From positions 1-20,043 of IMG/VR virus record IMGVR_UViG_3300045931_000172: a DNA stretch of 20,043 nt; one strand, written 5' to 3'. This DNA comes from a virus. A model generated the notes under the pieces. That model was given only the letters and a program-made list of their open reading frames with translations. It did not search any database and was not told the origin of the DNA. Each line of letters begins with the position of its first letter. Position 1 is the stretch's first letter. This document shows positions 913 to 14,143 of the stretch, one piece after another. A program made the position numbers and the translations under genes.

Positions 913-2864
913 TACCGGCCTCCCCTCAACCAGCCGCCTGGCCGCTGTTGAATCCATCCGGGCTTGAGCTTCTTCGGTGCCGCCGACGCGGCAGCCGTAG
1001 GTGTCGTCCCTGGGCGCTCGACCGGCGGCGCTTCCTCGCGCCGAGCGATGCCTCTCCGATCCTCAAGCTTGCGCCAGTCCGACTCATGGAACCGATCGAG
1101 GCCCGCGAGCGCAGCCGCGCAGCGGCCGTAGATCCTCGCGTCGAGCACGTGGTTCTGGCGCCCTGGGATCTGCTCCCACTGCATGCGGATGTAGCCGCGA
1201 CGCGACTTGTGCGACACGAGCTGCTCGGCCGTCAGCTGCTTGAAGTACTCCTCCCCGTATTCAGGGAAGTGACAGAACCCGTCCGGCTCTGACCCGTCCT
1301 CTCGGCGTTCGAGCCGCAGCCATCCAAAGAGCTCGTTTTTCCCGATCGCGCCGCAGACTGGCCACAACCGACCGCCGTTCTTCAGCTTCTTGCCGCGGAC
1401 CGTGACCTCGACGGCCGTCGGCGACATCACCAGCGCGCTGCCGTGGTCCTGGCCCTTGATCGCGACGACTCGGCTCAGTGGATACTTCCGCGTCCAGCTG
1501 ACCACGGTATTCTGGTTGTAACCGGCATCGACCGCCATCATCAGGATCGACAGCTCGAGTCCGCTCTCATGGGCGTAGCGGCGATTCAGCAGCGCATCAA
1601 CTTGCGGCCACGGGCCCTCGTCGATGTCGGCGGTGTCCCCAGGGATCTCGCCGTAATCGATCGACCAGGAGCGCTTCCCGCGGCCCCACCCGATGACCTC
1701 ATAGACGAGGCGATCCTTCTGCACGTCCACCCCGGCCGTGAGCACCAGCGCGCCCATTGGCACGGTCCCGATACGGTAGTTCTCCCGCCGACGCTGCACG
1801 GTTTCCCACTCGGGCGCATCGCCGCGCGACGTCCAGACCTCCCCGAGCACGGTGTTGATGAACACCCGGAACTTCTCCGGGTCGCGGTGGGTGTCCTCGA
1901 ACGCTTTCGCGATGTCGCCCCAGGACATCCAGCCGACCGGCGCATAGAGCGCGTTCAGGTGATACCCGCGCACCTTCCCGCCGGCCCGCTCCGGCACCTC
2001 GGCCCGCCATTCACCGGCCGCCAACATCTGCGCCTTTTGGTGGTTCCGGATGTGGAACAGGCAGGCACGGCACTCGTAGACCGCCTGTTCCGGCGGCAGT
2101 CCCAGCTGCGTCCAGCGGAGCTGCGCGAACACCAGTGGCTGCATCTCGCCGCAGTCCGGACAGGGCACGTAGAACCGGCGCTGGTCCGACACGTCATACG
2201 CGTGCTCGATCGCCGACCGCCCGGCAATCGTCGGCGTCGAGACCTTCATCCGCTTCTTTCGGGCAAACGTCCGCTGCCTGACTTCGACCAGGCCGATCGG
2301 TGACCCTTCCTCGTCGACATCGACCGGATACCCGTCGACTTCGTCCAAGAGCGCGTATTGCGCCGGCATCGACCGGAGCCCGACGGCGCTGTTGGCGCCG
2401 GTGATGATCAACTGCCCGCCAGGGAACTCCTTACTGAGCACGGTATTCCCACTGTCGCGTGACCGGGCCGGCGGCACGCGTTCGGCCAGGCGCGGCGTGT
2501 CGGTCAGCAACGGGTCGAGCCGCTGGCGGCTGAAACGCTTCGCGAGCTCCACCGTCGGCTGCACGAGGATGACCGGGCCGGGGCAATGGTCAATCGCGTA
2601 GCCCAGCGCGTTCAAAATCGCTTCGCTTCCGCCGACCTGGGCGGCCTTCATCAAGACGACCTCTTCGACTGGTGACGCCGACGAGAAACAATCCATCAGT
2701 TCACGCAGATACGGTGTCCGGGATGTGCGCCATGGCCCTGGCTCGGCGCTCGACTTCTTCGGCAGCTTCCGGTGCGCGTCGGCCCACTGCGAGACGGTCA
2801 GCAAGACGTCGGGCCGGATGCCATCCGCGTGCGCCTGGCGAATCGCCTCGATCGCGCTAGGCAC
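912..2864 (-). CDS. Terminase large subunit, GpA family, 650 aa
   Basis: This is the ATP-driven motor and cos/pac-cutting nuclease of DNA packaging. Length is typical (lambda gpA 641 aa). The N-terminal ATPase carries a deviant Walker A, MKAAQVGGSE (about 72-81), and Walker B with the catalytic acid, YALLDEVDG (170-178). A zinc-binding insert follows (C235xxC238 and C265xxC268). The C-terminal nuclease has the three acidic positions expected for the family: D380 in TAGVDVQKD, D446 in MAVDAGYN and D575 in NHVLDARIY. The start is a GTG at 2864, overlapping the small-subunit stop by 8 bases, which indicates translational coupling. The last 45 residues are low complexity (A/P/R-rich), as expected for the portal-binding tail. 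No lesion is visible. Confidence 0.97.
   Translation of the reverse strand: MPSAIEAIRQAHADGIRPDVLLTVSQWADAHRKLPKKSSAEPGPWRTSRTPYLRELMDCFSSASPVEEVVLMKAAQVGGSEAILNALGYAIDHCPGPVILVQPTVELAKRFSRQRLDPLLTDTPRLAERVPPARSRDSGNTVLSKEFPGGQLIITGANSAVGLRSMPAQYALLDEVDGYPVDVDEEGSPIGLVEVRQRTFARKKRMKVSTPTIAGRSAIEHAYDVSDQRRFYVPCPDCGEMQPLVFAQLRWTQLGLPPEQAVYECRACLFHIRNHQKAQMLAAGEWRAEVPERAGGKVRGYHLNALYAPVGWMSWGDIAKAFEDTHRDPEKFRVFINTVLGEVWTSRGDAPEWETVQRRRENYRIGTVPMGALVLTAGVDVQKDRLVYEVIGWGRGKRSWSIDYGEIPGDTADIDEGPWPQVDALLNRRYAHESGLELSILMMAVDAGYNQNTVVSWTRKYPLSRVVAIKGQDHGSALVMSPTAVEVTVRGKKLKNGGRLWPVCGAIGKNELFGWLRLERREDGSEPDGFCHFPEYGEEYFKQLTAEQLVSHKSRRGYIRMQWEQIPGRQNHVLDARIYGRCAAALAGLDRFHESDWRKLEDRRGIARREEAPPVERPGTTPTAAASAAPKKLKPGWIQQRPGGWLRGGR
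919..925 (-). promoter_or_regulatory. Ribosome binding site of the 27-codon ORF
   Basis: GGGGAGG on the minus strand, six bases ahead of the ATG at 912, inside the last codons of the large terminase. It is the strongest such site in this neighbourhood and is the main reason to treat the tiny frame as translated. Confidence 0.6.
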
Positions 2865-3411
2865 TGGCCACCTCGAGGATCGTGTCGGCGGCGATGTTCA
2901 ACGCTTCCCGGAGCGCCGCGTCGAGAATGATGAACACCCGCGCCGGGTCGGTCTCGGCCGCGAGCTCCGCCGCGAGCCGCGGCGTGACGTTCAGGACCGC
3001 TTCCCGAATGGCGCGCTCGGATTCGAAGGCCACCTTAGTCGCCTTCTCGACCTCGACTATCCGGCCCTCCTTCAAGTCGTTGGCCAGGCGGTCCCGACGG
3101 GCCCGCTCGAGCGTCGCCAGCATCTGCGCGTCGTTCAGCGTAGCGGCCGAAATGACGCGCCCTGGCGCCGGTGCCGCGGACTCTGACGGTGCGGACTCTG
3201 GCGCGGACCCTCCAGTCCGCGTTTGGCGGCACGCATTCTCCCGGAGCTCCACGATCGCCAGCTCCATGTCGGCGATGAACGGCTTGCCCTTCTCGTCTCG
3301 GCCGATGGACTTCTTGAGCCGGCCCGAGGCGATAGCCTTCCGGATCACCTTGTCGCTCACGCCTCGCTGGCGGGCCAACTCCCGAAGGGAGCACGACTTA
3401 GGCGCGCTCAC
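2857..3411 (-). CDS. Terminase small subunit (Nu1-like), 184 aa
   Basis: Small terminases recognise the packaging site and load the large subunit. The length is close to lambda Nu1 (181 aa). The N-terminal 45 residues read as a MerR/excisionase-type winged helix: 'CSLRELARQRGVSDKVIRKAI' followed by a short wing (SGRLKKSIGRDEKGKPF). After an A/P/S-rich linker (about 67-87) comes a helical oligomerisation segment with charged heptads (LATLERARRDRLANDLKEG, then VEKATKVAFESERAIREAV). It ends in an A/E-rich helix that would contact GpA. The start is GTG at 3411, fused to the stop of the HNH gene (GTGA), and the stop overlaps GpA. Identification rests on the HTH plus the position directly before GpA. 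Confidence 0.85.
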   Translation of the reverse strand: MSAPKSCSLRELARQRGVSDKVIRKAIASGRLKKSIGRDEKGKPFIADMELAIVELRENACRQTRTGGSAPESAPSESAAPAPGRVISAATLNDAQMLATLERARRDRLANDLKEGRIVEVEKATKVAFESERAIREAVLNVTPRLAAELAAETDPARVFIILDAALREALNIAADTILEVASA

Positions 3412-4376
3412 CGACCCCCCTCTGCGGACCCGTGTGCGAGTCTGGAACTAGATGGTTCTTGCGCCGCGCTGACCCGCTCTATGAAAAGTTCTGAGGGGAA
3501 ACTAAGCCACCCCCCACCCCCAACCTCTCGGTTGCCTTTCGAAATATTGCAGCGCGAGTGAGCGAGTTGGAGATTGTGCGACTCGTGCTGTCCTCCTTTT
3601 GAGATAGGGACGATGTGGTCGATCGTCGCTGACATCGGGTGCGGATACCGGAGCGTTCGATCAACTGGCGCCTTGCAGATGCCACACATTCCGCTATCGC
3701 GGCGGTAGAGTTGCGCCACTGGTACGACTGTTGGGTTCAGGCCCTTAAGCCTCAGTTTTCTACGCTTACTCTCGTACCGCTGGCGACAGACTGTTGAGCA
3801 GGCCACTTGCCTCGAGTTCACGCCTATAAACAACTCTCGACACCAGAGACACTCTCTCGGCGCTGGCGCTCTACGCGCTTTAGGTGTTGGAGGCTTAGGT
3901 GCAGCCTTACAACAGAACTTCCGAGCGTGACTGCCGTTCGCCCAGGGCCAGAACTCACTCCCACATCGTGGGCATGAGACCATCCGGCGCCTAGGTTGGC
4001 GGGCCACTCGTTGCCTGCTAGGCCATAGCGCCTGTCTTTCCCTGCGTCGTTTCACTGAACACGATTGGCAGAACTTTGCCTTTCCTCTGATCTCGCCTTC
4101 GCACCCGAGACACACGCGCGCGCCCTTTGCCGCACGCTTACGACACCGGGCCGCTTCGCTCGATGCGCGCTGACAACAATCCATCGAGCAGAAGCGGGTT
4201 TTTCGACCAATGTGGAATGGCTTACCACACTGGAGACAAAACCCCACGCTGGGCCCGGCAGTCGGGCGGATGCCTTTCGCGTGCGCTCTTCTCAGGCGTA
4301 AGAGGTGCTCGCGCTCAATTAAGGGCCTTATCCAAGCCCCAGCCTCCAGAGAAAGCGCCTGGGTCATCTCGACCAT
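3408..4376 (-). CDS. HNH endonuclease with four zinc knuckles, 322 aa
   Basis: A predicted DNA nicking/cutting enzyme. Residues about 230-280 hold the HNH core: CGIC, then TIDHIVPISKGG (D253-H254), HNLQL (N268) and AHSRCNISKG (H273, C276), which form the beta-beta-alpha-metal site. Before it are four Cys pairs-of-pairs typical of DNA-binding zinc ribbons: C47/C50-C63/C67, C89/C92-C103/C106, C135/C138-C155/C156 and C176/C179-C193/C197. The ATG at 4376 is chosen because it overlaps the upstream stop (TGATG); an in-frame start at 4436 would overlap the membrane-protein gene by 60 bases. HNH proteins beside terminases can assist cos cleavage in some phages (HK97 gp74), but homing enzymes look the same. 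The 3' half is visibly less GC-rich than neighbouring genes, suggesting acquisition. Confidence 0.88.
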   Translation of the reverse strand: MVEMTQALSLEAGAWIRPLIEREHLLRLRRAHAKGIRPTAGPSVGFCLQCGKPFHIGRKTRFCSMDCCQRASSEAARCRKRAAKGARVCLGCEGEIRGKAKFCQSCSVKRRRERQALWPSRQRVARQPRRRMVSCPRCGSEFWPWANGSHARKFCCKAAPKPPTPKARRAPAPRECLWCRELFIGVNSRQVACSTVCRQRYESKRRKLRLKGLNPTVVPVAQLYRRDSGMCGICKAPVDRTLRYPHPMSATIDHIVPISKGGQHESHNLQLAHSRCNISKGNREVGGGGWLSFPSELFIERVSAAQEPSSSRLAHGSAEGGR

Positions 4377-4582
4377 CACCGGCGCCCCAGCGCGAGCAGT
4401 GCGGCGAGCATGACGCCGACCGAGGCCACTATGCACCCGAGTCCGAACGCGGCGAGGCTCGCGCGCGCGTAGGTGACGCGCTCGAGCACGAACCCGATGG
4501 CGAGCAGGACCACGGCGCAGAACACCACGAGCAGCACGCCCAGGAGGAACGAGGGCACCGCTGGTACTCCACTCTGAGTCAT
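4376..4582 (-). CDS. Small two-helix membrane protein, possible holin
   Basis: A 68-aa protein with two strong hydrophobic segments, about residues 11-33 (FLLGVLLVVFCAVVLLAIGF) and 42-65 (SLAAFGLGCIVASVGVMLAA and following), joined by a short charged turn (ERVTYARA) and ending in RR. Size and topology fit class II phage holins, but no endolysin or spanin is seen in this window, so the lysis role is only a suggestion. It begins at an ATG two bases after the stop of the previous gene and ends in a TGATG junction with the HNH gene, so it belongs to the same coupled transcript. Alternative: an unrelated membrane-associated phage protein. Confidence 0.75.
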   Translation of the reverse strand: MTQSGVPAVPSFLLGVLLVVFCAVVLLAIGFVLERVTYARASLAAFGLGCIVASVGVMLAALLALGRR

Positions 4583-5155: not shown

Positions 5156-6718
5156 CTACTCCTCCGTCTCGTACGTGTCGCCTGCGTCATCGGTATCAAA
5201 CACGTCTCCCGCCTCCTCGGTAGTGGCGGCAGCGAACACCCCGAGAACCACCTCGACGGCCGTGCCGGAGAACACCTGCGTCGCGCTGATGTGCGCGCCC
5301 GCCGCCACCTGTGTGTTGCTGACCGTCCCGGTAAACAGTTGGGTCTGGGCGATGGACGCGCCGGCCACCGTGCCTAAGGTGGTGACCGTGCCAGGAAACA
5401 GCGAGGTCTGACTGACAGACGCGCCACTCACTGCGTAGGCTGGCGCACCGGCGAACAGGCTGGTCTGAGCGATCGTCGCACCGCTGACGGCGTACGTGGC
5501 CGTGGCCGCGCCTGGAAACACCGCCGTCTGGCTGACGTGCGCCCCTGTGACGGTGTCAGAGGGCGTGACGGTGCCGGCAAACAGCGCCGTCTGGGCAACC
5601 GACGATCCGCTGATGGCGTAGGCGGCGCTACCTGGGAACAGTTGCGTGGCGCTGATCGTGGCCCCGCTGACCGCGTAGGCCGCCGATCCAGCGAACAGGG
5701 CGGTCTGGCTAATCGACGCTCCAGCGACCCCGCCGTCGGCGGTCACGGTCCCAGCGAACAGGCTGGTTTGGCTGATGGAGGCCCCGGCGACCACAGAGGT
5801 CGCTGACCCGGCAAACAGGCTGGTTTGGCCGATCGACGCGCCCGCGATCGTGTCCGAGGTGGTGACCGTGCCAGGGAACAGGGTCGTCGCGCTGATCGAG
5901 GCCCCGTTGACCACGTAGGCCAGACTCGGCGCGAAGACCTGCGTCTGACTGATGTGCGCGCCCACCACCTGCTGCGTGGAGCTAACCGTCCCGGCGAACA
6001 ACTGGGTCTGGCTGATTCGCGCCCCATAGACCACCGGGGCGTACAGGAGCGCCGCCCGCCGGTCCAGGCGCGGGTGCGTGACCCGCTGCTGCCAGAACCG
6101 CTGCTCCGGCTTCAGCTTGTGGCGCTTCTTTCGGATCGGTGTGTAGGTCGTTTCCGCGCCGCCAGCGACCGTGCCGGCAAACAGCTGGGTCTGGCTGATG
6201 GTGGCCCCCGCGGCTCCGACCGTGACGCTCCCCGCGAACAGTTGCGTCTGGCTGATGGTCTGGCCCGCCACGACATACGCGGCGGACCCCGCGAACAGCT
6301 GTGTCTGGCTAATCGAGGCCCCGGTGACCGCGCCGGTGGAGGAAACCGATCCCGCAAAGAGCGCGGACTGGCTGACCGTAGCCCCATCGACCACGTGCGC
6401 GGCGCTGCCGGCAAAGACCTGCGTCTGACTGATCGACGCGCCGTCGACGGGCTGGCCCGGAAAGCTGACCGTCCCCGCGAACAGGGCGGTTTGATTGATC
6501 GACGCGCCGTCGACCACAGCGATCGCGCTGCCGGCGTTGACGGTCGTCTGGGCGATGTGCGCGCCCTCGACCACGTGGCGCACGTCCCCGGCAAACAGGG
6601 TCGTGGCACTGATCGTCGCGCCCTCGATCGCGCTGGCGGCGACGACCAGCACGAACAGCCGCTTGACGGTGCGGCGTGACTTGAACGCGAGGCGCGGCGT
6701 CTCGAATAGACGTCTCAT
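5156..6718 (-). CDS. Repeat protein, 520 aa: 21 tandem 19-22-residue beta repeats
   Basis: After a basic N-terminus and a hydrophobic stretch (KRLFVLVVAASA, residues 19-30, possibly a weak signal sequence), residues 31-490 are copies of one unit with consensus V-x-G-A-x-I-x-Q-T-x-L-F-A-G-[ST]-[VA]. Most units are 19 residues ending in A-Y-[VA], or 21 ending in a T-rich turn, and they tend to alternate. A basic 45-residue segment (185-229, including RKKRHKLKPEQRFWQQ) splits the array after the eighth unit. The last 30 residues are degenerate and highly acidic (DTDDAGDTYETEE). The regular G, I, T, F/L spacing suggests a beta-solenoid or stacked-strand fibre. The ATG overlaps the upstream stop (ATGA). 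Context favours a virion fibre or surface protein; no enzyme motif is present. Confidence 0.85.
   Translation of the reverse strand: MRRLFETPRLAFKSRRTVKRLFVLVVAASAIEGATISATTLFAGDVRHVVEGAHIAQTTVNAGSAIAVVDGASINQTALFAGTVSFPGQPVDGASISQTQVFAGSAAHVVDGATVSQSALFAGSVSSTGAVTGASISQTQLFAGSAAYVVAGQTISQTQLFAGSVTVGAAGATISQTQLFAGTVAGGAETTYTPIRKKRHKLKPEQRFWQQRVTHPRLDRRAALLYAPVVYGARISQTQLFAGTVSSTQQVVGAHISQTQVFAPSLAYVVNGASISATTLFPGTVTTSDTIAGASIGQTSLFAGSATSVVAGASISQTSLFAGTVTADGGVAGASISQTALFAGSAAYAVSGATISATQLFPGSAAYAISGSSVAQTALFAGTVTPSDTVTGAHVSQTAVFPGAATATYAVSGATIAQTSLFAGAPAYAVSGASVSQTSLFPGTVTTLGTVAGASIAQTQLFTGTVSNTQVAAGAHISATQVFSGTAVEVVLGVFAAATTEEAGDVFDTDDAGDTYETEE
5249..6628 (-). repeat. Tandem coding repeat array, period about 57-63 bases
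   Basis: The DNA behind residues 31-490 of the repeat protein. On the plus strand the most conserved block is a variant of 'ccggcgaacag.tgggtctggct', recurring every 57 or 63 bases, with a 135-base unrelated interruption at about 6032-6166. Copies differ mostly at third codon positions and in the linker, so the array is old or diversified rather than freshly expanded. Copy-number change by recombination is plausible. Confidence 0.9.
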
Positions 6719-7395: not shown

Positions 7396-10300
7396 TTACT
7401 GGATCGCTCCCTTCCGCCACACACCGGCGTAATCCTGCGCGATGACCGCACCATCTGTTCCCACGGACGGATCAAACACGGTGTTCGTCCAGACCTCCGG
7501 ACCCGTCCCTGAGGTACTCAACTGCGTAAAACTCCTCGCCACCGGGTCGTAGATCCAGACGCCGGATTGGCCGTCGTTGCTGTTCCGGTGGCTGGTCCGC
7601 ACGTAGAGGTACTTGCCCTTCCAGCGCCCCCCGGTGATCGGCACCGTCAGCGACTCCAGCATGGTCGACGACTGGTTACTCGGCGCCCCCGTCGGGTTCT
7701 GGTTGGTCATGGTCTTCGACTCGACGTCGTATTCCCAAACCGTGTTCGACCACGTCCCGCTTTCGTCGAGGTTTTTAAAGATCAGTATCTTGTCAAGCGT
7801 GGCGTCGTAGAACACGTCCGCGTTGACAATCGAATTGCGCGGCGGCGAGGTCGCGGTCGCGTCGGCGTAGACTTCATCGGCCCAGGTGTTCGCCTGCGTG
7901 CAGCCCGCCGCGGACTGCGGAGCGGAGAGTGAGGACGCCGTCGGACAGTAGGCTTTAACGCTGATCGTCGCACCGCTGCCGCGCGTGCCGAACAGGAGCA
8001 GCACGTCGTGCGTCGGGTCGGCCGCCATCGAGGAGTTAGTGTCATGGGCGTCATCGGTCGCCGGGGTGAGCTTCGCCGTCGTGTTGTCGGTCGGGTCGGC
8101 GTTCAGCGCCATCTTTAGGACGTCGTTCGGGATGTCCCCACAGACCAAGCCGCCCGACTGCCAGTAGAACCCGCCCATGAGGGCGCTCCGGTGATCGGGG
8201 TGGCGATCCGATAGCCAGGGCTGCAGGTCCGAGCCGCTGCCGTCATCGACCCCGCCCGGCGTGTCCGCCGGATAGTTCGTGCAGGCATGGGAGGGGGACC
8301 CGGTGCCGCCGATGCGTGTGAACACGCCCGTGTTGGAGGCCAGCGCGAAGATGTCCGTCGAGTAGATCCCCGAGCCCGTGCTCCGCATCAGATACGCCAG
8401 CACCCGCCCCGAGACGGGGTCGTAGTGATGCTTGACCTGATTGAGCGGATTAGGCACGTCACCAGAGGTCGACATGGTGCTCCACGTCAGCGACGGCGCC
8501 CCATCCTCGACGCGCGGGTAGTAGGCCTTAACGCTGAAGTTCTCGAGGGTCAGGCCGGTGTCGCCGGTCGCCACCGTGGTCGACTGCTGGGAGCCCGCGG
8601 CCCCGGGGGTCGGGATCTCGCCGGACGCCGCGTTGGTCGCCGCGAACCAGTTGGTCTGCGTGGCCGGGTCGCCGATGAAGTCGAAGGTCCGCTCGTTGAA
8701 CCCGATCCAGTCGACGATGGTTTTGTCCGACCACTTAATGCGGTAGGAGGTCGTCCCGTCGGGCACCGCCCACTGCAGGCGGTAGGTGCCGCTCCCGAGG
8801 TGGGTGAAGGTGTTGATGTAGACGTCCTGCAGCTCCACCGGGCTCGGGTCCTCGATGTTCGCGACCAGCGTGGAGATCTGGTAGTTCCCCAGCTCCGGCC
8901 AGCTCACCCCGGAGGCGGCGATCAGCTTCTGGACGGCGAGGGTGAATTGATCCAGCCAGTCGGTGTTCTGATCCACCAGCCACTGCGTGTAGTACAGCAT
9001 CCACAGGGTCGCCCGCGCCGTGATCTCGTAGTTGCTGTCGTCGGGCGGGCAATCCGGATCGGGCACGTCGCCGTCGTTCGAGTTGTGGTCCAGCAGCACC
9101 CACGGGTGATACCCGTCCTCGTCCCACTGCCCGTCGCCGAACGCCTCCCAATTCTCCTCCAGCACCACCCGCGTGATCCCATACGCCAGATCGAGCGCCT
9201 CCCAATAGTCCGCCCAGGCCGCCCCTTTGGCCGCACGGAACTCCAGGATGCCGTGCGCCACGATGGCACTGAACAGGTCGCCGCTGTTGCGGTAGACCAG
9301 CCCGGTCGCCCCGCACCAGTTTCCCAGGCTCCCACCCGACCAGTGGGCGCCGCGCAGACGGCTGGTGCCGAACACGGAATCTTCGTGGAGGTTGCCGGGA
9401 TTCGGCGTGAAGGTGCAATAGCCCGCGTCCTCGTCGGACTGCGGACACATCACCGGCTTGACCTGATTCGTATAGAGGGCGGTCCCGTTGGTCAGCACTG
9501 TGGAGTTAGAGATGCCGACGTCCGCCAGGAACTCCGCCATGCGGGCGTAGCCGAGCAGAAAGATGCCGACCGATCGCGAGGTGCTCAGGCGGCCATCCGT
9601 CGGGAAATGGCCGAAGAAGTTGTGGCTGTAGTACTCCTGAATCCCGTCCAGCAGCGCGTCCTTGGCCCGTTCGTCTCCAGTCATGAAGTAGTAGGAGGTG
9701 AGCCCGTACCAGTGCGCGTGGGACTGGTCCACCCACGTCACGTCGCGGCCATGGACCTCCGCCGAATTCGCGGACGTGCGCGATGGTCGCCCTATCGCAT
9801 TGATGCCGCTCTGACCGACCCACGTGAACCCGTCGCTGTGCGGGAAGGCCGAGTCGATCACGAAGTGGTAGAACTGCATCGCGTCGACGTAGCGGCCGGT
9901 CATCCCCCGGGTGATCCAGTTAAAGAAATGCGAGTAGCCGTATTCCAGCTGGTTGCCGCCGCCGGGATCGTTCCACGCCTTCACTCGAAAGGCCTGGATG
10001 TTCCATGAGCCGTTGTTCGTCGTCTCGTCCAGGTAGGGCCACGCGGTGAACCCGGACATCGACGGTGTGCCGGAGGCCTTGGCGTCCTCGTAGAACGCCT
10101 GCTCGTCGGCGGGCGCCGCCATCTTGAACATGCCAAAGGCGCCCGTGTCGTTGTAGTGGGTGTAGGGCGCGCGGGCAATCAGCGCGTGCTGCCACTTCAG
10201 GAACTCATTTTTAGCGGTCGACAGGGCCTCATGGTGGAAGTTGAAGTAGAGGTCGTGCGTGGAGTACTGCGGCCATTGCTGGTAGTAGGCCTCGCTGTTC

Positions 10301-11814
10301 TGCCGCGCCCAGATCCCGACGGTGGCGAGGGACCCGCCCGAGGCGAACTCCAGCGACTTCGGCCAGTACGCCGCCATCTGATAGACACCGATCGACATGC
10401 CGACGCCCGAGGCATTCCGGATGTCCGCGTAGCCCGCGATGGCCTGCGCCACGGAGTTGTTCCCGGAGTCGACCGGCGACCCGGTGTTGTCGTTCAGGAT
10501 CAACTGCCACCCGGAATCCGTGGTCGGCGGCACCACCTCACTGCTCGCGTCCCAATCGTTGCCCTCCATAAAGAGGGAGGCGCCCGAGTAGAGGTAGATG
10601 GTGTCGGTGCCGGAGATGGACCCGGTCTGCTCCCCTCCGGCGTCGATGCCGTAGATATAGCTGCGGGTGCCGCTGATGTTGACCGTGGTCCTCCACTCGA
10701 ACGACTCGAACCCTTTGTGCGCCACCGCGAACGAGTTATCCGCGCCCAGCTCGGCGTTCCGCAGACTGACGGTGGCCTTCGTGGCCGACTTGCCCTTCCA
10801 GAAGTACATCCTGACGGTGAACTTCATGTAGGTGTTGCCGCTCCCGTCCTTCAGGGAGCCCATCGCCTTGATCACGGCCCGCACCGGCCCGTTCTCTTCG
10901 ATGGTGACGGAGGTCGAGCTATCGTTCGCGGAGGTGAATTCGGTGTTGCACGTCCCGCAGGAGGTCGTGCTCCCGTCGTACGCCGGGCCCTTCAGGACGA
11001 GCCCCTGCGAGGCGCCGCTCGAGACCACCGTGGTTGGGCCTGCGCCGCACGTCACCTGATCGAACCCGTTGAAGCCGGACTCCTTAATGGTGAAGGTGCA
11101 GGCGCCTGTGGCGACACTGATCGCGCTGCCGGTGTCCGTGGCAAGGTCCGACCCGCCGAAGTTCCCGCTCCCGGTGTTGGTCAGGGTTATGTCGGTGGAC
11201 GTGGCGCCCGCGCTGAGACTGTCCTGGATGCCGTCGACCAGCACCCACTTGATGCAGCCAGACTCCCAATGGCCGAGCGCCCGGAACTGACCCGCGGACG
11301 ACCCCGTCAGCCCGAAGTTCGAGGTATCGGTCTGGCAGCCCTCGCCATCCGGCAGCGGGATCCCGACCGTGACCGGTTCGTCGGTCCGGTCCACGCCCGC
11401 GCTGCCGCCAGCATAGATCGCTTCCTGCACCGTCAGGTTGACCGACACGTCCTCACTCGTGCCGCTCGACACGGTCACGACATCACTCCGCTGCACCCCG
11501 CCATTCGTCGTGCAGGTCACCGTGATCACGTTGTCGCCGTCTGCGAGCGCAATGCTCGAGACGCTCCATGACGTCGTCCCGGTCGCGGATCCACCGCCGC
11601 CGAGGCTGTTCGTCCAGGTGCAGCCGGTGATCGTCTGGCTCGAGGTCGCCGTCCCGGCGAGCGTGGTCAGCTCGGTTGCAGAGCCCGCGTTATACGTCGG
11701 GCTCGCCGTGGGCGCCGTGATGACGACGTGCAGGACAGACAGGCTCGGATTCGTGGGCGCCGCCGGCGCTTGCAGGAGGATCGACCAGAGCAGCAGGGAA
11801 GACAGGGCCGTCAT
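7396..11814 (-). CDS. Giant multidomain protein, exo-rhamnogalacturonan-lyase-like, 1472 aa
   Basis: The domain order by eye is: hydrophobic N-terminus (1-20, weak signal-peptide look, no basic n-region); an Ig-like domain (about 30-116, ADGDNVITVTCT strand); a beta-barrel domain (about 125-410) with hallmarks of the PcRGLX/YetA-like RIFT barrel, namely EPVTVGIPLPDGEG and 'ALGHWESGCIKWVLVDG'; a helical toroid-like region (about 500-970) with paired aromatic helices (HAHWYGLTSYYFMTGDERA, SVGIFLLGYARMAEFL, TLWMLYYTQWL); an FN3-like strand set (about 985-1060); and a kelch/propeller-like C-terminus (about 1090-1472, repeated GxWxxxxxxYDxxxxxxT patterns). This architecture suits a polysaccharide-cleaving enzyme. 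It could be a virion depolymerase or a phage-carried accessory carbohydrate enzyme. Catalytic residues cannot be assigned. Its ATG overlaps the upstream stop (ATGA). Confidence 0.72.
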   Translation of the reverse strand: MTALSSLLLWSILLQAPAAPTNPSLSVLHVVITAPTASPTYNAGSATELTTLAGTATSSQTITGCTWTNSLGGGGSATGTTSWSVSSIALADGDNVITVTCTTNGGVQRSDVVTVSSGTSEDVSVNLTVQEAIYAGGSAGVDRTDEPVTVGIPLPDGEGCQTDTSNFGLTGSSAGQFRALGHWESGCIKWVLVDGIQDSLSAGATSTDITLTNTGSGNFGGSDLATDTGSAISVATGACTFTIKESGFNGFDQVTCGAGPTTVVSSGASQGLVLKGPAYDGSTTSCGTCNTEFTSANDSSTSVTIEENGPVRAVIKAMGSLKDGSGNTYMKFTVRMYFWKGKSATKATVSLRNAELGADNSFAVAHKGFESFEWRTTVNISGTRSYIYGIDAGGEQTGSISGTDTIYLYSGASLFMEGNDWDASSEVVPPTTDSGWQLILNDNTGSPVDSGNNSVAQAIAGYADIRNASGVGMSIGVYQMAAYWPKSLEFASGGSLATVGIWARQNSEAYYQQWPQYSTHDLYFNFHHEALSTAKNEFLKWQHALIARAPYTHYNDTGAFGMFKMAAPADEQAFYEDAKASGTPSMSGFTAWPYLDETTNNGSWNIQAFRVKAWNDPGGGNQLEYGYSHFFNWITRGMTGRYVDAMQFYHFVIDSAFPHSDGFTWVGQSGINAIGRPSRTSANSAEVHGRDVTWVDQSHAHWYGLTSYYFMTGDERAKDALLDGIQEYYSHNFFGHFPTDGRLSTSRSVGIFLLGYARMAEFLADVGISNSTVLTNGTALYTNQVKPVMCPQSDEDAGYCTFTPNPGNLHEDSVFGTSRLRGAHWSGGSLGNWCGATGLVYRNSGDLFSAIVAHGILEFRAAKGAAWADYWEALDLAYGITRVVLEENWEAFGDGQWDEDGYHPWVLLDHNSNDGDVPDPDCPPDDSNYEITARATLWMLYYTQWLVDQNTDWLDQFTLAVQKLIAASGVSWPELGNYQISTLVANIEDPSPVELQDVYINTFTHLGSGTYRLQWAVPDGTTSYRIKWSDKTIVDWIGFNERTFDFIGDPATQTNWFAATNAASGEIPTPGAAGSQQSTTVATGDTGLTLENFSVKAYYPRVEDGAPSLTWSTMSTSGDVPNPLNQVKHHYDPVSGRVLAYLMRSTGSGIYSTDIFALASNTGVFTRIGGTGSPSHACTNYPADTPGGVDDGSGSDLQPWLSDRHPDHRSALMGGFYWQSGGLVCGDIPNDVLKMALNADPTDNTTAKLTPATDDAHDTNSSMAADPTHDVLLLFGTRGSGATISVKAYCPTASSLSAPQSAAGCTQANTWADEVYADATATSPPRNSIVNADVFYDATLDKILIFKNLDESGTWSNTVWEYDVESKTMTNQNPTGAPSNQSSTMLESLTVPITGGRWKGKYLYVRTSHRNSNDGQSGVWIYDPVARSFTQLSTSGTGPEVWTNTVFDPSVGTDGAVIAQDYAGVWRKGAIQ

Positions 11815-12613: not shown

Positions 12614-13156
12614 TCACAGTGAAGCGGCCCGCAGCCGCCGGATCCGCCGCACACGGCGATGCTGCCGCGTGCCCCCGATCAGCTCAACGTATTCGAGCGC
12701 CATCGTCACGTAATCGACGGTCATGTTGTGCGCCGAGGTAAACCAGAACCGCACGCCGAAATCGGCGTCGTTCACGATCGCCGAGGTCAGCGTCGCGCCC
12801 CAGAGATCGGACGTGCTCCCAAAGGTGTAGACCGTCGGCGACGTCCCGTTGACCGACGCCGTCTTGCTCGACCCGACCAGCGTCCCGCTCTCATTCTGCA
12901 ACTGCGCGTTGAGCGTCTCCGACCCCGCGCTCGACTCGGCTGCCTCGATTCGCACCGTTACGCCGACGATGAGGGCGTTACTCGGCAGGCCGAAGCTGAA
13001 GTTCCGTGCGACCAGATACTGCGAGCTCGCCCCGGCGTTGCACGAGGCGTCCGTGGCGTTGTCGCTCGTGATGTTCCCCGGGTTCGTCCAGGCCGTCGCG
13101 CCAATCCCGGCGTTGTTCTCGCCCGTGCCGGCGAACACGTTGCCCGTGCTCGGCAT
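12614..13156 (-). CDS. Beta-rich structural protein with arginine tail, 180 aa
   Basis: ATG at 13156 is chosen because GGAAAGG lies just before it; an open frame continues to 13294 but runs across the HNH 3' end and a gene remnant. The protein has a jelly-roll-like pattern: W-T-N-P-G-N-I (24-30), 'LVARNFSFGLPSNALIVGVT' (48-67), VRIEAAESSAG, LNAQLQNESG, TLTSAIVNDADFGVRFWFTS and VDYVTMALEYVE. The 'N-F-x-F-x-[IL]-P-x-x-A-x-I-x-G-[IV]' strand signature recurs in phage surface proteins. The last 17 residues are very basic (RQHRRVRRIRRLRAASL). Likely virion-associated by composition and neighbours. Confidence 0.77.
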   Translation of the reverse strand: MPSTGNVFAGTGENNAGIGATAWTNPGNITSDNATDASCNAGASSQYLVARNFSFGLPSNALIVGVTVRIEAAESSAGSETLNAQLQNESGTLVGSSKTASVNGTSPTVYTFGSTSDLWGATLTSAIVNDADFGVRFWFTSAHNMTVDYVTMALEYVELIGGTRQHRRVRRIRRLRAASL

Positions 13157-13178: not shown

Positions 13179-13229
13179 CTACAGGTCGAACCAGCCGCTG
13201 GCGTGGACGGTGAGGTCAATCGAAACACC
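13179..13229 (-). pseudogene. Orphan 3' end of a paralogue of the 137-aa structural gene
   Basis: These 51 bases end in TAG and translate, in the right frame, to IDLTVHASGWFDL. The intact gene ending at 13730 closes with INFTVHASGWFDL. Over the aligned 42 bases about 32 match, and nearly all differences are at third codon positions, so both copies were shaped as coding sequence. There is no start or upstream coding part here: the HNH gene abuts and overlaps it (HNH stop at 13216-13218, in another frame). This is either the displaced original C-terminus of the 137-aa gene after the HNH gene inserted with its own 3' patch, or the relic of a deleted tandem copy. Confidence 0.75.
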
Positions 13230-13701
13230 GACACGTCGGACAATGCGGCTTCGCTTGAGCCACGCGCACGCCCCGGCCATGTCGGTCCTTCCACAATTCG
13301 AGATTCTCATCGGCGTTGTCCTTTCGATCACCGTTCTTGTGATGCACCGTCTCGGTTTTCAACAGCGGACGCCCAAGACGCTGCTGCATCACGTAGCGAT
13401 GCTCGAACATCCAGCGATCCCTCGTCGCGCCGTGAGTCATCGTGCCGGGCGTGCCTTTCGGCACTTTGACGATGACGTAATCTCCCTGCTCCTGCCGCGC
13501 TCCAACTGGATACAACGCCTTGTCCCAGCAGTCCCGCGAACAAAACTTTCCTCGGGACTTCCGAGCAGGCACGAACGACTTACCGCACTGTTCACACGTT
13601 CGGACCCCTCGACAGCATTCGACGGAACACCACCGACTGTTCGCGTGGACTGGCTGAAATTCTTTCCCACATCGACGGCACGGCTTCGGTTTGTAGGGCA
13701 T
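13216..13701 (-). CDS. Zinc-ribbon HNH homing-type endonuclease, 161 aa
   Basis: Two N-terminal zinc knuckles (C8/C11-C25/C29 and C36/C39-C54/C58) precede an HNH_3-type core: HRYVMQQRLGRPLL (101-114), TVHHKNGDRKDN (118-129; H120-H121 and N123) and ADENLELWKDRHG (130-142; N133, H141). A further Cys cluster, CPTCRC, ends the protein. This arrangement is typical of free-standing phage homing endonucleases. ATG at 13701 is preferred to the GTG two codons before it. The gene sits 28 bases after the 137-aa gene and overlaps, at its 3' end, a second copy of that gene's tail. The 5' flank (13708-13735) is AT-rich against the surroundings, consistent with insertion. It interrupts an otherwise continuous structural module. 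Confidence 0.92.
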   Translation of the reverse strand: MPYKPKPCRRCGKEFQPVHANSRWCSVECCRGVRTCEQCGKSFVPARKSRGKFCSRDCWDKALYPVGARQEQGDYVIVKVPKGTPGTMTHGATRDRWMFEHRYVMQQRLGRPLLKTETVHHKNGDRKDNADENLELWKDRHGRGVRVAQAKPHCPTCRCFD

Positions 13702-13729
13702 GCCCACAGCATACCATCAAACGGTGGAA

Positions 13730-14143
13730 TTATAAATCGAACCACCCGCTCGCATGGACTGTGAAGTTAATGTTGCCGCCATTCGGCGTCACCGGCATCC
13801 CCGTCATCGAGCTGTCGTAGAACGCGACGAGCCGGTCGTTGGTGACCGTGTCGTCCCACAGAATCACCGCCTCGCTCTGGTCGCCCGTGACCGACGACCA
13901 TGTGAAATCGGCGGTGTCGAACGTGCCGTTGGTGCACGTGGGCGACCCCAGCGCTGAACTCTCGGCCACTTTCGCGGCGGTGGCCACGTCGGTGGAGCCG
14001 CCGCTGTATTCGTCGTGCGCCGCCGAAAACGTGTAATCGGCGCTGTCGATCAGCGTGGCCTTGATCACATCGCCATCCATATCGATGGCGGTGGTGTTAT
14101 CCAGCAGCTGCTGAGTGAACGGGTTATAGAGCGCGTTGGCCAT
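13730..14143 (-). CDS. Phage structural protein candidate, 137 aa
   Basis: The start 'MANALYNPFTQQLLD', the I-K-A-T-L-I-D-S-A-D-Y-T-F segment (27-39), 'AAKVAESSALGSPTCTNGTFD' (21 residues, given by ends A56 to about D76), 'FTWSSVTGDQSEAVILWDDT' and 'GMPVTPNGGNINFTV' match a phage protein family often encoded near tail or fibre genes and of unknown exact role. It is beta-rich and has no signal or membrane segment. An AGGAG site lies about ten bases before the ATG. The last 14 codons (13730-13771) use more A/T third positions than the rest and are mirrored by the orphan tail at 13179-13229, so the C-terminus may have been supplied by the HNH insertion. Confidence 0.82.
   Translation of the reverse strand: MANALYNPFTQQLLDNTTAIDMDGDVIKATLIDSADYTFSAAHDEYSGGSTDVATAAKVAESSALGSPTCTNGTFDTADFTWSSVTGDQSEAVILWDDTVTNDRLVAFYDSSMTGMPVTPNGGNINFTVHASGWFDL

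Follow-up and report, generated by a model that had tools for sequence, protein, structure and literature searches.

A probable homing gene that carries a replacement gene end in a viral contig

Gene order and the two versions of a gene end

The window, by which we mean the whole 20,043-base virus record analysed here, contains on its minus strand an 88-aa gene, a 137-aa gene (14143-13730), an HNH ORF (13707-13216), a short orphan coding end (13220-13179) and a 180-aa gene (13156-12614), in this order. The features of the locus are as follows.

12614..13156, minus strand: next downstream gene, 180 aa, an ORF that marks the native right flank
13179..13220, minus strand: orphan tail, i.e. the displaced C-terminal coding end, terminated by a TAG of its own and recognized by its homology to the attached end and its position behind the HNH gene
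13221..13222, no strand assigned: putative right junction of the inserted element, where the HNH codons for CRCF give way to the target ATT; placed from the conserved C-x-C-F/H end, with one base uncertain
13216..13707, minus strand: HNH endonuclease, 163 aa, with a GTG start and an ATG at 13701; match to PF13392 (HNH_3), E=1.4e-6
13708..13729, minus strand: spacer of 22 nt from the new stop codon to the HNH start, read from the sequence
13730..13786, minus strand: attached C-terminal patch, putatively donor-derived, about codons 120-138, delimited by a drop in GC3 and by homology to the orphan tail with mostly synonymous differences; the core homologous to the orphan is 13730-13771 (minus strand) and the left edge is approximate
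13730..14143, minus strand: target gene, 137 aa, phrog_644 family (profile match E=3e-21)

The phrog_644 family, for which we found at least 100 relatives in viral contigs, is of unknown function; members from isolated phages carry the annotation hypothetical protein, minor tail protein or minor tail subunit. The 137-aa protein ends in INFTVHASGWFDL before its stop (longer form: GGNINFTVHASGWFDL), encoded by ATT AAC TTC ACA GTC CAT GCG AGC GGG TGG TTC GAT TTA TAA. The HNH protein scores 28.3 bits against the HNH_3 profile (cut-off 24.8) and has zinc-ribbon Cys pairs and a conserved, intact HHKNG..DN..NLEL motif. Its sequence reaches HCPTCRCF, and the frame takes its last codon and stop from the orphan tail. 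Among HNH relatives the C-x-C-F/H end is conserved and the sequence beyond it differs, which fits a mobile part that stops at this point.

Directly behind the HNH gene, the orphan tail encodes IDLTVHASGWFDL and a stop (ATT GAC CTC ACC GTC CAC GCC AGC GGC TGG TTC GAC CTG TAG). An earlier note on this DNA had described a duplicated 3' end flanking the HNH gene, and this was borne out: the orphan and attached ends are identical at 32/42 nt, and of the changes in their 14 codons, 7 are synonymous, counting the stop, and 2 are non-synonymous. The note had placed the orphan fragment at 13179-13229. A fragment with its own stop is indeed present, but its true core is 13179-13220, i.e. 42 nt and not 51, because the homology begins at ATT (13220), right after the HNH end C-R-C-F (13222-13233). 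The claim that the orphan is GC-rich at third positions and the attached copy A/T-richer agreed with our counts (GC3 of 13/14 versus 12/19, with 0.66 for the HNH gene). Within the 137-aa gene itself, GC3 is 104/119 in codons 1-119 versus 12/19 in codons 120-138 (p=0.014). No further match to the tail at 29/42 or better occurs elsewhere in the window, and among the viral contigs that match the tail pattern no other carries it twice.

In the collections searched we found no close HNH-less relative of the window, and the equation of its displaced end with the native end therefore rests on analogy, composition and distant relatives. Over the last 30 nt, 25 of 32 HNH-less relatives were closer to the orphan and 3 to the attached end (p=7e-5, the relatives not being phylogenetically independent); over 42 nt the numbers were 19 and 5. 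A search for the empty allele by synteny retrieved relatives of the 180-aa gene in three contigs (L146-L148), none adjoining a phrog_644 gene. By analogy with the allele pairs described below, we infer that the orphan of the window represents the native end. FDL is the ending of both window tails and was absent from all other relatives checked, which points to closely related donor and recipient, or else to convergence.

Recurrence of duplicated ends and empty alleles in relatives

The closest HNH proteins in viral contigs are those of L012/L022 (70% identity), L158 (53%) and L157 (51%), and the genes of L012, L157 and L158 all lie directly behind a phrog_644-family gene. Double tails like that of the window are present at L157 and L158, with attached ends SGSGIFAL and NASGIFAL and displaced end NASGIFAL, each before a stop. 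A clear displaced tail is absent from three further loci where an HNH-type gene follows a member of this family (L012, L004 and, in antisense, L015); a decayed tail behind the L012 HNH gene (SSG..AL) was considered and found not significant. In L004 (4001-4456 and 4478-5152) the target preceding the HNH gene lacks the usual stop and is extended by 14 residues. In L015 the HNH-like gene lies, in antisense orientation, directly behind a phrog_644-family gene ending at 4411, so that the phrog_644 gene end is a repeated landing place.

A first comparison of wide flanks, with a threshold of 45, gave matches at 71/482 control loci versus 10/89 HNH loci; because repeats and paralogues produced many of the control matches, it was replaced by a stop-anchored test in which the last codons of the upstream gene are compared with the frames behind the HNH gene. 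We collected 136 distinct HNH ORFs, 129 of which were testable, and 9 of these scored at least 25: the window (67), L274 (59), L172 (46), L158 (38), L157 (29), L173 (29), L160 (27), L218 (25) and L242. The null consisted of 5000 mismatched pairs of flanks from other HNH genes, with a 99% level of 20 and a 99.9% level of 30, both far below the window's score of 67. L242, the sole tail match among the HNH relatives found in genome contigs, is a near-identical repeat with 0 synonymous and 1 non-synonymous change and was not counted. Control non-HNH ORFs reached 25 in 12/787 cases (HNH versus control, p=0.001), and in the eight strongest controls, which we inspected, the matching end was the control ORF's own end, in look-alike genes lying side by side.

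The window's layout thus recurs at about nine, and at least eight, further HNH loci involving several target genes, with L157 and L158 in the phrog_644 family. The displaced tails of L157, L158, L274, L172, L173, L160 and L218 occupy the same position relative to the HNH gene as the window orphan, and the gap from the attached stop to the HNH gene is 0-34 nt at the other double-tail loci, similar to the 22 nt of the window. In four cases (L172, L173, L160 and L218) the HNH frame continues into the displaced end and uses the target's own stop codon. Across eight loci and 75 codons, attached and displaced tails show 46 synonymous versus 7 non-synonymous differences, and GC3 of the attached tail is below that of the displaced tail in 8/8 (sign test, p=0.008 two-sided).

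Several other loci were noted on the way. In L213 (HNH gene at 2899-3447) a recT-like gene end reading AIYGDNELDG... precedes the HNH gene and AIYGDGELDG with a stop follows it, the same pattern without stop anchoring; this is probably a further example, with a recombination gene as target. Weak matches over 3-5 codons (L247, L195 and L241) were not counted, nor was flank similarity of another kind, from paralogues or mid-gene duplication (L221, L023 and L230/L231). In L230 and L231 the HNH gene (2566-3231) sits midway along a long gene, and a segment of 21 residues is found on either side of it (RTAKIFELNVGDPVLMGKYKN and RTGKTFELNIGDPVLLGKYRN); this is possibly the same type of insertion inside a gene.

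The earlier note had proposed that the uninterrupted gene should end in the displaced version, and this was confirmed for L158 when it was compared with its HNH-less alleles L302 and L303, in the same target family and with a related HNH subfamily. The L158 and L302 target proteins are identical (134/134 aa). Codons 1-113 agree at 330/339 nt, i.e. with 9 differences, versus 46/66 in the last 66 nt, where all 20 changes are silent (body versus end, Fisher p=4e-11) and every codon from 114 to 125 is changed. Behind the L158 HNH gene, 26/27 nt match the native end of L302, followed by the native downstream sequence; upstream, 1446/1500 nt agree. From this comparison, the displaced end of L158 is the native one and the attached end is the respelled one. 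The recoded stretch begins at about codon 109-114 and the insertion lies to its right, at about codon 126-127, and recoding left of the insertion point would fit co-conversion or a recognition site that spans the cut.

Among sixteen HNH loci examined in named phages, a double tail was found at that of Gordonia phage Kabocha only. Here the HNH gene lies behind the terminase gene, and Gray, Hanem, Chidiebere, ChisanaKitsune and Schomber are without it. Kabocha and Gray are identical until 55 nt before the terminase stop. The attached last 54 nt of Kabocha then differ from Gray at 17 nt and in 14/18 codons, with 0 amino acid changes, whereas the tail behind the HNH gene equals Gray's native end at 54/54 nt and the next 150/150 nt are identical. 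Relative to Gray and Chidiebere, Kabocha thus has a clean 813-bp insertion within the terminase coding sequence, and its displaced end, judged by this identity, is the native terminase end, which extends the confirmation to an isolated phage and another target. The Kabocha patch is not A/T-richer (GC3 of 9/18 versus 9/18). It matches all natives seen at 36-41/51 and is farther from them than Gray's native end is from most natives.

The HNH-less terminase end of ChisanaKitsune (L297, 930-996) shows 8 patch-type sites followed by 10 native-type sites. It is possibly the product of a single crossover between patch and native tail with loss of the HNH gene, and would then be a scar or a resistance allele; in reverse, part of the Kabocha patch may derive from a ChisanaKitsune-type allele.

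A homing gene with its own gene end, and the alternatives

Comparison of the loci establishes the architecture and its recurrence and, in two relatives, the native identity of the displaced tail and respelling without amino acid change. In our view, the HNH gene is very probably a homing gene that entered the coding sequence of a virion gene some 14 codons ahead of the stop, bringing a recoded C-terminal patch with it. Pairs of alleles with and without the insert at one site, as expected of a homing gene, are present in relatives (L158/L302 and Kabocha/Gray). The earlier note had likewise favoured a homing element that brings its own C-terminal patch and pushes the original end downstream; this is supported by L158 and Kabocha, and for the window it is carried over by analogy. 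New here are the recoding of the attached patch, with codons changed and the protein kept, and the position of the HNH gene inside coding sequence. In the window, the patch has 2 amino acid differences from the orphan and hence is not purely silent.

Cutting, its site, the direction of transfer and selection for resistance are what we infer from this architecture. The mobile unit would consist of the recoded 3' coding patch, its stop, the short spacer and the HNH ORF. Insertion would join the target gene to the patch, leaving the target protein therefore essentially unchanged, and the original last codons would end up behind the HNH gene, untranslated or as a junk frame. When two phages infect one cell, the HNH protein would cut the uninterrupted allele near the insertion point and repair would copy the donor unit. 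The gene body would serve as the left homology arm and the displaced native tail as the right one, a part that the tail can play because the insertion falls within the coding sequence. A classical homing gene splits its recognition site by inserting into it. Here the patch would restore the whole target at the protein level, so that its DNA must differ from the native sequence to escape the enzyme, and this need would be the reason for the synonymous respelling, which would shield the rebuilt end from self-cutting.

On a broader proposition our confidence is evenly split, namely that tailed phages harbour widespread natural home-and-rescue drives. HNH elements would invade the 3' ends of conserved genes (virion genes, terminase, recT-like), the silent changes of their ends, recoded codon by codon, would have been selected for immunity of the carrier to its own nuclease, and the patch would also circulate nuclease-free as a resistance allele, as in the ChisanaKitsune-type recombinant.

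The alternative that survives best, although we judge it unlikely, is that the HNH gene merely happens to lie at a mosaic boundary. A foreign gene end and a free-standing HNH gene would have been placed ahead of the native end by illegitimate recombination between two phages, with no homing and no selection on the patch, and the silent differences would be donor-recipient divergence. A survey reports phage homing genes at exchange boundaries (PMC10448857), any distant donor alone would give silent divergence, and the window tails differ at two amino acids too. However, the insertions are clean on both sides, the patches of L158 and Kabocha keep every amino acid with the rest of the gene unchanged, the Kabocha patch is more distant from every native end than Gray's is from most, and the arrangement recurs. 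For the step of selected self-immunity in particular, plain donor divergence is a possible explanation and the main rival.

The earlier note had offered a deleted tandem paralogue as its own alternative: a second copy of the 137-aa gene would have shrunk to its final 14 codons, and the HNH gene would stand between the two copies by chance. Tandem virion-gene paralogues do occur in such phages, as the control matches illustrate, and the FDL ending on both window tails, unique in the family, is a mild point in its favour. Nevertheless, we regard this reading as very unlikely, because short tails right behind HNH genes recur in several unrelated targets and the empty alleles of L158 and Kabocha hold one gene only; nor did any relative have two copies.

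Splicing of the body to the orphan tail, as by an intron or intein, is possible in principle and HNH genes often reside in introns, but an Rfam scan gave no match up to E=1, the HNH ORF takes 492 of the ~509 bases between the attached stop and the orphan and so leaves no space for a ribozyme, and the stop codon at 13730-13732 ahead of the HNH gene breaks the continuous frame that an intein needs, so that this reading has next to no probability. Equally negligible is a plain duplication at insertion (target-site or strand-slip) that later drifted: it would explain one insert flanked by two copies, but a released copy should drift regardless of the protein, against the excess of synonymous differences at the eight loci, and it is contradicted in L158 and in Kabocha, where the displaced copy is still identical to the native allele.

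Relation to known systems and wider context

The homing reading has its nearest precedent in mobile ORFs of fungal mitochondria, found in atp6 of Allomyces macrogynus and in atp6, atp9, cox2 and nad3 of Glomus sp. (PMC3630166). Like these, the phage arrangement combines an endonuclease ORF with a foreign, silently diverged C-terminal end joined to the target, and the native end, matching an element-free relative, lies behind the endonuclease ORF with the protein nearly unchanged (PMC3630166). An endonuclease gene lies between an attached and a displaced end in the window and at no fewer than eight further loci. In contrast, the fungal elements are mitochondrial, encode LAGLIDADG or GIY-YIG enzymes and are sometimes fused in frame (PMC3630166); ours encode HNH enzymes and are found in a viral contig and tailed phages, as inserts of ~0.6-0.8 kb in many different target genes. 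The phage element works like a fungal mobile ORF and is not a member of that group.

Free-standing enzymes of the T4 type (seg/mob) lie between genes and cut hundreds to thousands of bp away (PMC2988022). The present elements share with T4 intronless homing that they are phage-borne, lack an intron or intein and have an HNH domain with a zinc-binding region, and they would be expected to spread by double-strand-break repair and co-conversion (PMC2988022). Unlike the T4 type, the HNH gene lies between the body and the native end of one gene, and the element brings the target's end. Group I intron-borne HNH genes also lie inside conserved coding sequence with exact flanks, but with a ribozyme; here Rfam gave none to E=1, and function would be kept by the carried gene end and not by splicing.

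An engineered parallel is the HomeR drive, in which the 3' coding end of an essential gene is targeted, a re-coded remainder of 22 or 27 aa downstream of the cut is supplied, and carriers stay functional and uncuttable (PMC7968924). HomeR is a CRISPR system in flies (PMC7968924), whereas the phage arrangement is natural and its patch resistance would be the expected counterpart. By these analogies, the element may be seen as a phage counterpart of fungal mobile ORFs that resembles engineered home-and-rescue drives. The passages found in the PMC10448857 survey make no mention of displaced ends in connection with homing genes at exchange boundaries, and no phage precedent for a carried recoded gene end was found in the open-access literature searched.

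By carrying a replacement end, a homing gene would reside in conserved coding sequence without destroying it, which adds a third solution to introns and inteins; engineers have devised the same trick for gene drives. Kabocha and Gray, with one Gordonia host, form an exact occupied/empty pair in cultured strains that makes cutting, homing, self-immunity through silent respelling and recombinational loss testable. For annotation, this means that the last 10-25 codons of a phage gene can be of foreign origin when an HNH gene follows, and that a small orphan frame or an unusual C-terminus behind an HNH gene can represent a displaced gene end.

The window contains three other ORFs of interest, all on the minus strand. 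A second HNH gene (3408-4436, 342 aa, PF01844) with several Cys-pair motifs lies near the terminase large subunit gene, and its flanks hold no duplicated gene end. A 520-aa ORF (5156-6718) is built of ~20-residue repeats of the type GASISQTQLFAG, and similar repeat proteins are present in several relatives (L046, L049, L143 and L004). Finally, a 1472-aa ORF (7396-11814) has a weak match to PcRGLX-like sugar lyase domains and is possibly a polysaccharide-degrading tail protein.
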